This document shows positions 1,410-2,462 of a DNA stretch of 25,431 bases, piece by piece. Under the pieces are notes generated by a model. It was not told the DNA's origin and did no database searches. It saw nothing but the letters and a program-made list of their open reading frames with translations. Every line of letters starts with the position of its first letter. Positions within the stretch are counted from its first letter, which is position 1. Origin of the DNA: a virus. A program made the translations under genes and the position numbers. The stretch covers positions 1 to 25,431 of the IMG/VR virus record IMGVR_UViG_3300020034_000064; one strand, written 5' to 3'.

Positions 1410-1555
1410 CGATGGCTCCGTTTCAATTGCTCGTTTTCGATGTAGAGGTGGGCGTTTTCCTGTTGAAGGTCTTGCTGGGATGCGTCCCCGAGAGACGTGG
1501 CCAGCACGTAGCCGAGGACGAATGCGAAGAGGGCTACTCCTGCGATCAGGACCAT
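1406..1555 (-). CDS. Small membrane protein, 49 aa, TM plus short coiled coil
   Basis: The product starts MVLIAGVALFAFVLGYVLAT, one transmembrane segment at residues 2-20. A polar helix follows (QQDLQQENAHLYIENEQLKR) with spacing suited to a short coiled coil. The ATG at 1555 overlaps the stop of the second XRE gene as TGATG, and the stop overlaps the next gene as ATGA. Family not recognised. With the following 54-aa gene it forms a pair of tiny single-pass proteins that could form a hetero-complex; this is inference from adjacency and coupling. Confidence 0.65.
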   Translation of the reverse strand: MVLIAGVALFAFVLGYVLATSLGDASQQDLQQENAHLYIENEQLKRSHR

Positions 1556-1788
1556 CAGCGCTTCCTCACCCGGCCGACTTCGACGAGCTCGTCGTCTTGG
1601 ATCGGGAAGAGATCGGATGCGGCGACCTTGAAGTGGTCGGCCAGCTTCTTGGCGACTCGAGGGGTCGGCATCTGGCCTTCCTCAAGTCGACGGACCGTGC
1701 GACCCGAGACTTCGGCCTTGATGCCGAGCTGCTCCGGCGAGAGCCCGGCGTTGAAGCGCAGTTCGCGAAGCTTCAGCCGATCGGCCAT
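1555..1788 (-). CDS. XRE-family HTH regulator, second of a tandem pair
   Basis: This 77-aa DNA-binding protein consists almost entirely of an HTH_3/XRE domain: LKLRELRFNAGLSPEQLGIKAEVSGRTVRRLEEG, then a helix and a C-terminal VRKR. It is clearly paralogous to the upstream regulator: both have LSPEQLGI/MSPEQLGI, VSGRT and RR.EEG at matching positions. I chose the ATG at 1788 because it has GGGAGAG immediately upstream; the open frame reaches 1806. It overlaps the first regulator by 16 nt and is coupled downstream to the 49-aa gene. It is Cro/CII-sized and likely binds the operator array at 1961-2044. Confidence 0.85.
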   Translation of the reverse strand: MADRLKLRELRFNAGLSPEQLGIKAEVSGRTVRRLEEGQMPTPRVAKKLADHFKVAASDLFPIQDDELVEVGRVRKR

Positions 1789-1979
1789 AGCTCTCCCACG
1801 GGGCACTCGAACTCCTTCGCGATCAGGAACATCGTCCGGACCGTCGCGCGGTGCCCTTCCTCGACGCGGCGGATCGTTCTCCCGCTGACGCCGACCCGGA
1901 TGCCAAGCTGCTCCGGACTCATCCCCCGTTCGTAGCGGAGGACTTTCAATCGATGTCCCGTCAAGGTCATTGAAGCCAC
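1773..1979 (-). CDS. XRE-family HTH regulator, first gene of early operon
   Basis: The 68-aa product is a compact XRE helix-turn-helix protein (LKVLRYERGMSPEQLGIRVGVSGRTIRRVEEG, residues ~10-41, followed by a helix and ending ELWPIG). It lacks any oligomerisation or sensor domain, as in Cro. The start is either GTG 1979 or ATG 1970; neither has a Shine-Dalgarno sequence. A promoter-like pair (TTGACA, 17 bp, TACGGT) places the expected transcription start at about 1979, so the message may be leaderless from the GTG. It is the first gene of the minus-strand early operon and diverges from the repressor-like gene at 2070. Confidence 0.85.
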   Translation of the reverse strand: MASMTLTGHRLKVLRYERGMSPEQLGIRVGVSGRTIRRVEEGHRATVRTMFLIAKEFECPVGELWPIG

Positions 1980-2044
1980 GTCAACACCGTAGCGGCGGCT
2001 TCAAGCCGTGTCAAGTCCTTTCAAGCGGCGTCAACCAGAGTCAC
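1961..2044. repeat. 10-bp phased TCAA operator-like array
   Basis: On the plus strand TCAA occurs at 1961, 1981, 2001, 2011, 2021 and 2031, with TCAC at 2041 and TGAA at 1971. All are exactly in 10-bp register. In the opposite orientation these read as TTGAC/TTGAA. The array covers the -35 region of the early promoter and the space towards the divergent gene. One helical turn between sites puts them on one DNA face, as expected for cooperative binding of HTH proteins. The operator function is inferred. Confidence 0.75.
1986..2014 (-). promoter_or_regulatory. Early promoter, -35 TTGACA / -10 TACGGT
   Basis: Read on the minus strand, TTGACA (2014-2009) is followed by a 17-bp spacer and TACGGT (1991-1986). 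The -35 is a perfect consensus; the -10 matches at T1, A2 and T6. The predicted start at about 1979 coincides with the GTG of the first XRE gene. The phased TCAA motifs overlap the -35, so a bound regulator would block it. Confidence 0.55.
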
Positions 2045-2053
2045 CCGCTGCCG

Positions 2054-2062
2054 TGGTAGTTA
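2054..2062 (+). promoter_or_regulatory. Possible extended -10 for repressor-like gene
   Basis: TG-G-TAGTTA ends 7 nt before the ATG at 2070, so transcription could begin at or next to the start codon. No -35 is evident and there is no ribosome binding site upstream of the ATG. This supports a leaderless message, but the -10 match is modest. Confidence 0.35.
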
Positions 2063-2069
2063 ACGAGCC

Positions 2070-2462
2070 ATGCCTCTCTCTAAGGTCGAGTTCAGACGCC
2101 GCCTCGTGGCGGGCCTCGCCCTCTACGGGATGGAACTGACGGATGCCAAAGAGCTACTGGCGCCGTATAAGGATCTGCCCGTCCATCACGCCGAGCGGAT
2201 GGGTCGGGAAAGCGACCCGCTTGTTCCGGAGCCGGACTCGGCTACGGTCTTGGCGCTTGAGCGCGAGCTGGGAGTGCCACCGGGATGGTTCGCTGACGAG
2301 GAGTGGACGATGCTCGTTCCAGGTTCTCGCTTTCGCGACCGCGCAGCAGACCTTGGGGAGGCGCGACGGGCGAAGAACGCTGCCTCTCGAGCGAAGCAGA
2401 AATCGCAGAAGAAATCTCCCGGCAAGCAGACTTCCAAGGAGAGGAAACTTCAAGACCGATAG
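2070..2462 (+). CDS. Repressor-like HTH protein with basic tail
   Basis: The 130-aa product is transcribed divergently from the early operon, in the position of a CI-type repressor. Residues ~5-80 have the pattern of a short phage XRE-like domain: RRLVAGLALYGMELTDAKELLAPYK, then LALERELGVPPGWFADEEWTML. This last segment is typical of the C-terminal helix and tail of such domains. After residue ~90 it becomes strongly basic and low-complexity (KNAASRAKQKSQKKSPGKQ), perhaps for non-specific DNA binding. There is no protease or dimerisation domain, so SOS cleavage is not evident. Start ATG 2070 lacks a ribosome binding site and may be leaderless. The assignment as repressor rests on position and weak motif likeness. 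Confidence 0.7.
   Translation: MPLSKVEFRRRLVAGLALYGMELTDAKELLAPYKDLPVHHAERMGRESDPLVPEPDSATVLALERELGVPPGWFADEEWTMLVPGSRFRDRAADLGEARRAKNAASRAKQKSQKKSPGKQTSKERKLQDR

Follow-up and report, generated by a model that had tools for sequence, protein, structure and literature searches.

Organisation of the divergent region

Between positions 1961 and 2044 of a 25,431-base virus record in IMG/VR (IMGVR_UViG_3300020034_000064; this whole stretch is called the window, and all positions are window coordinates) lies an operator-like array of short units repeated every 10 bp and read on the minus strand. The array region sits between a leftward pair of small genes, XRE1 and XRE2, and a rightward gene for a 130-aa protein, and it includes the -35 box of the leftward early promoter as one of its units. 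The phasing is kept in seven homologous loci.

XRE1 (1773–1979, minus strand) encodes 68 aa from a GTG at 1979, or 65 aa from an ATG at 1970, and matches the helix-turn-helix (HTH) families HTH_31 (2e-8) and HTH_3 (5e-8). Its predicted fold is confidently of the Cro/P22-c2 type (pLDDT 94), with a match to 434 Cro at 2.5e-7. XRE2 (1555–1788, minus strand), the other member of the tandem pair, is likewise a small HTH protein, of 77 aa. The preliminary description of this DNA had proposed two tiny XRE genes here, and both proved real and conserved, with HTH family matches and homologues across eight loci. The divergent gene (2070–2462, plus strand) encodes a putative repressor with homologues in loci L298 and L301; it had no matches in searches of viral contigs, of phages or of 399 genomes from the class Thermoleophilia. 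As the 130-aa protein has no Pfam or PHROG family match and its fold model is of low confidence, the HTH label given to it is plausible rather than firm, and a fold search of that model gave no clear identity.

The leftward early promoter consists of the -35 box TTGACA (2009–2014, minus strand), which agrees with the consensus at 6/6 positions, a 17-bp spacer and the -10 box TACGGT (1986–1991, minus strand), with the GTG start codon 6 nt downstream. Inspection of the opposite strand suggests a candidate extended -10 (TGGTAGTTA; 2054–2062, plus strand) for a leaderless rightward promoter, 7 nt 5' of the ATG at 2070. The back-to-back promoters, with a Cro-like XRE gene at the head of the early operon, are a feature shared with Lambda/434-type Cro-CI switches.

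An array in exact 10-bp register

TCAA occurs at 1961, 1981, 2001, 2011, 2021 and 2031, and TCAC at 2041, all in a single 10-bp register and exactly as first described. The remaining slots in register hold TGAA (1971, one mismatch) and AGCG (1991, no match), and an additional TCAA at 1946 is off register. On the minus strand the units read GTGAC (from 2044), TTGACG (2034), TTGAAA (2024), TTGACA (2014) and TTGAAG (2004), followed after the row taken by the promoter -10 by TTGACG (1984), TTCAAT (1974) and TTGACG (1964). The units at 1961 and 1971 fall within the first codons of XRE1.

Such a register goes beyond chance. When all 4-mers and all periods of 5–25 were scanned across the window over 9 slots, the observed maximum was 6 (TCAA, period 10), whereas 300 order-2 Markov simulations gave maxima of 4 (271) or 5 (29) and reached 6 in 0/300. 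The same motif on the minus strand, TTGA-N6-TTGA, is found three times in 25.4 kb, all within the array, against 0.39 expected in the window, and 0/100 shuffles reached three. The array region is also the top 90-bp stretch of the window for 10-bp periodicity (0.50; runner-up 0.386). Tandem Repeats Finder reported just a weak 27-bp fragment (2000–2026, score 33) as the decamers are conserved over about half their length only.

The array had further been described as placing four consecutive sites directly over the -35. This is true of the unit at 2011, which is part of the -35 box, but 2001 lies in the spacer and 2021 and 2031 lie upstream. On the minus strand, the outermost of the four therefore lie two turns upstream and one turn downstream of the -35.

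Conservation of the pitch in homologous loci

Relatives were gathered by protein homology to the XRE1 family and not by DNA. This search yielded L297, L298 and L301 in viral contigs and L302 in a Solirubrobacteraceae metagenome-assembled genome. L316 and L320 are in genomes that share a class or family with the latter, and L024 is a locus within G005, a relative of the window by its portal protein. A first scan of genome contigs returned nothing. In the seven relatives, as in the window, two XRE genes lie in tandem beside a divergent gene, and the early promoter is predicted to be leaderless.

The intergenic regions of L298, L301, L297, L302, L024 and L316 were pooled, with the window excluded, and compared with dinucleotide shuffles. 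Identity was 0.37, 0.41 and 0.36 at lags 10, 20 and 30 (z = 6.6, 7.7 and 4.9), while every other lag from 4 to 31 remained at z <= 2.05. When the divergent region was instead compared with all other windows of the same loci, per-locus p values ranged from 0.004 to 0.059 (combined 9e-7), and the control periods 7, 8, 9, 11, 12 and 13 each gave a combined p>0.9. In five cases (the window, L298, L301, L024 and L316), no other stretch of the source sequence is as strongly 10-periodic as the divergent region. L320, which was found after the pooled test, carries a ninefold array. Each of the eight loci beats its own shuffles, with p<0.005 in seven and p=0.025 in L024.

The repeated word differs between these loci, being TTGAC in the window and L298, TCGAC in L301 and GCGCA in L320. 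The expectation set out beforehand, that relatives would keep the phasing despite drift of the sequence, is thus borne out in the six pooled loci and in L320. What is conserved is the pitch and not the sequence, as relatives differ in the word but share the 10-bp lattice and the way it is aligned with the -35.

This register is seen in the promoters themselves. The -35 box matches the consensus at 6/6 positions in five loci (window, L297, L298, L301 and L302), and when ~79 offsets are ranked by recurrence of the -35 hexamer, the first five places go to +10, -10, -20, +30 and -30. Multiples of 10 also fill the first four places once the window is left out. A TAnnnT box stands 6–7 nt 5' of the XRE1 start codon in 8/8 loci, so a leaderless early mRNA is predicted in all of them.

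A candidate multi-site operator

Judged from its sequence, the array is probably a helically phased multi-site operator which has the -35 box as one unit and which the switch's own HTH proteins, as candidate ligands, would bind cooperatively. The early promoter's -35 hexamer (TTGACA, minus strand) is repeated every 10 bp across the divergent intergenic region and would serve as a docking unit. Each HTH subunit would sit in a major groove, the next one taking the groove 10 bp further along the same face of the DNA, and neighbours would cooperate. The binder would most likely be XRE1/XRE2 of the early operon, in an autoregulation like that of Cro or of phage 186 Apl, possibly joined by the divergent 130-aa repressor. 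At full occupancy the leftward promoter would be covered over its -35, spacer and start, and coverage would reach the -35 region of the rightward one, so that RNA polymerase would be excluded.

The array bears on whether small XRE proteins can work in chains instead of as lone dimers, and such a switch gives direct access to the way in which the specificity of many operator sites can change together. A broader and rather unlikely version holds that, in a Solirubrobacterales-linked phage family, Cro-like XRE proteins polymerise head to tail, each monomer taking up 10 bp of an array with the -35 hexamer as its unit, and that immunity types diverge by rewriting the word of the whole array while the pitch is kept.

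Several findings weigh against a cooperative multi-site operator bound chiefly by the XRE pair. L302 and L297 are individually weak against natural windows, and there are eight loci only, partly non-independent, which perhaps represent three independent repeat-word groups. Among windows with low open reading frame cover in related contigs, 2–3% equal the array's periodicity score; these include the loci under study as well as tandem repeats. An array was also sought in the portal-based relatives, which mostly have other switch genes and no array, except for G005 (L024). Repeat-word similarity follows the divergent gene more closely (rho 0.65) than XRE1 (rho 0.48). Finally, the units are partly palindromic on the same lattice in 5/8 loci (window, L298, L301, L024 and L316), and the usual target of XRE proteins with this fold is a dyad bound by a dimer.

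Which protein may bind and in what arrangement

Sequence comparison favours the XRE1/XRE2 pair as binder because it is recognisable in 8/8 loci (XRE1 at z of 10 or more, XRE2 at z 4 to 58), whereas the divergent gene is clearly homologous in three only (window, L298 and L301). Repeat-word similarity correlates with XRE1 similarity (Mantel p=0.012) and, at rho 0.45, with that of XRE2. The words track the divergent gene better than either, and the 130-aa protein is therefore kept as a serious candidate. A somewhat unlikely alternative makes this protein, as lysogeny repressor, the ligand in place of the XRE pair, which would recognise the -35 hexamer and the copies in phase with it, rather like the repressors of cluster A mycobacteriophages at their asymmetric promoter sites. 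Strong arrays in the three loci that share this repressor type agree with such a role, as does the closer tracking of the words. However, L320 and L316 have clear arrays beside an unrelated or barely related divergent gene, and the window's protein is without a detectable HTH family. The XRE pair and the divergent protein may also both bind the array, as Cro and CI both bind shared operators.

The arrangement of the subunits allows a similar choice. The preliminary description took the half-sites to face the same way, as might suit a filament-like or cooperative binding, and direct repetition is indeed significant in 8/8 loci, but the dyad symmetry on the same lattice in five of them qualifies that picture. 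A same-facing monomer chain and a row of tiled dimers are consequently both possible. It could be, though we find it doubtful, that conventional XRE dimers tile overlapping near-palindromic operators, with neighbouring units as half-sites at the one-turn spacing of the 434 operator and with no head-to-tail chain. The Cro/c2 fold is that of a dimer binder, and the five loci with dyads fit this arrangement. In L297, L302 and L320, on the other hand, dyad symmetry on the lattice is not significant. A 20-bp alternation, as a dimer-sized unit might give, was suggested by a stronger signal at lag 20 than at lag 10 but failed a row-permutation test (even minus odd lags, p=0.46).

Explanations other than a repressor's operator are far weaker. 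The array could be a site for a CII-like activator, with tetramers directly repeated at a 10-bp interval on either side of the -35. Lambda CII promoters carry TTGC-N6-TTGC, and the geometry is alike in its tetramers, 6-bp gap and flanking of the -35. A CII-type site, however, has a weak -35 flanked by two direct tetramers, and the promoter here differs in its consensus -35, shared by five loci, and in having more than two units (up to seven). No CII family match was found among the window proteins in Pfam or PHROG, and this role appears very unlikely.

Little speaks for the decamer repeat as a functionless product of slippage. Decamer repeats of other words do occur across viral contigs, and a pattern-only search matched 67 contigs with this pattern, 45 with a letter-reversed control and over 120 at period 11. 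The degenerate units nevertheless hold their register, at the orthologous place in eight loci and in step with the -35, which makes slippage most improbable. A widespread TCAA decamer system, considered from the same search, was rejected on these control counts. Intrinsic DNA bending, which 10-bp phased AA steps can produce and for which the region ranks within the top 7% of contig windows in a wedge model, was likewise rejected as scarcely credible, since the model predicts a contraction of 0.043 versus 0.56 for phased A-tracts and the lags are exactly 10, 20 and 30 rather than 10.5, 21 and 31.

Comparison with known systems

By sequence and fold, XRE1 is closest to the proteins of the 434 Cro/P22 c2 switches. 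The operators of these switches are a few dyads and not runs of direct repeats. The array had been contrasted at the outset with classical operators of this dyad kind, but the contrast omitted a precedent among recombination directionality factors. In phage 186, Apl binds cooperatively to seven direct repeats of ~6 bp. These lie between pR and pL at a spacing of 10–11 bp, and the two promoters are repressed by Apl (PMC7498355). The array shares with the sites of Apl and of P2-like Cox proteins the direct repeats one turn apart at lytic/lysogenic promoters. However, Apl and Cox are excisionase-type proteins that also act at attachment (att) sites, whereas the window proteins are XRE (HTH_3/HTH_31) without an excisionase family match. 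Apl promoters face each other while those here stand back to back, and the spacing here is exactly 10 bp with the -35 box itself a unit. The array may resemble the Apl sites in its working, yet it is not classed as Apl/Cox-type because its proteins are not of the excisionase type. Direct repeats one turn apart are already known from Apl; what appears new is the XRE protein family, the promoter geometry and the exact 10-bp spacing.

BldC, Xis and RdfS bind DNA head to tail, and one DNA turn per molecule has been described for BldC (PMC11963761). The candidate binding at the array would resemble the filaments of BldC, lambda Xis and RdfS in placing one protomer per turn along promoter or att DNA. 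Those proteins are winged-helix, often with weak sequence motifs, and not XRE-type phage switch repressors. The small C repressor of phage P2 uses two 8-bp direct repeats 22 bp apart that flank promoter elements (PMC4752584), unlike the run at 10 bp seen here. Cluster A mycobacteriophages such as L5 and TipsytheTRex have asymmetric sites, with a word for each phage group, which are read by monomers and also occur at promoters (PMC9283540, PMC6550527). These operators and stoperators are 13-bp single sites across the genome, bound by a two-domain repressor and with no helical array. The pair TTGA-N6-TTGA is confined to the array within the 25-kb window fragment. Literature searches for an array of this kind with XRE proteins turned up no publication, which does not prove that none exists.

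The phage and further observations

Pfam and PHROG searches found a P22/SU10-like portal and a RusA-like gene among the window proteins, and the window looks like a fragment of a podovirus-type phage. The portal and XRE proteins have no match above 60% identity in annotated phages. No integrase match was found among the proteins of the window, which is only a fragment, although a match above the cut-off is present in 7/18 related records. The group as a whole is thus likely to be temperate, and the window's own phage may be so too.

Other periodic repeats were seen among the sequences searched. In one viral contig (L106, 8819–9194), a stretch of ~400 bp holds up to 23 TCAA units, all in the same 10-bp register. 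TCAAC decamer arrays, possibly origin iterons, lie inside replication-initiator-like phage reading frames at L066 (503–538), L122 (887–922), L128 (11215–11250) and others. The TCAA motif at period 11 occurs in more than 120 viral contigs (L133–L212 among them), exceeding period 10. The periodicity scans were topped by 15-bp repeats (GAGGT/GGCA) at the contig ends of two portal relatives (L032, 1–200; L057, 1–300). In the window itself, positions 940–991 form a near-perfect palindrome of 52 bp within the reading frame at 45–1001, with two 26-nt arms that are 96% complementary and no loop, which may be a strong hairpin, a recombination site or an assembly chimera.
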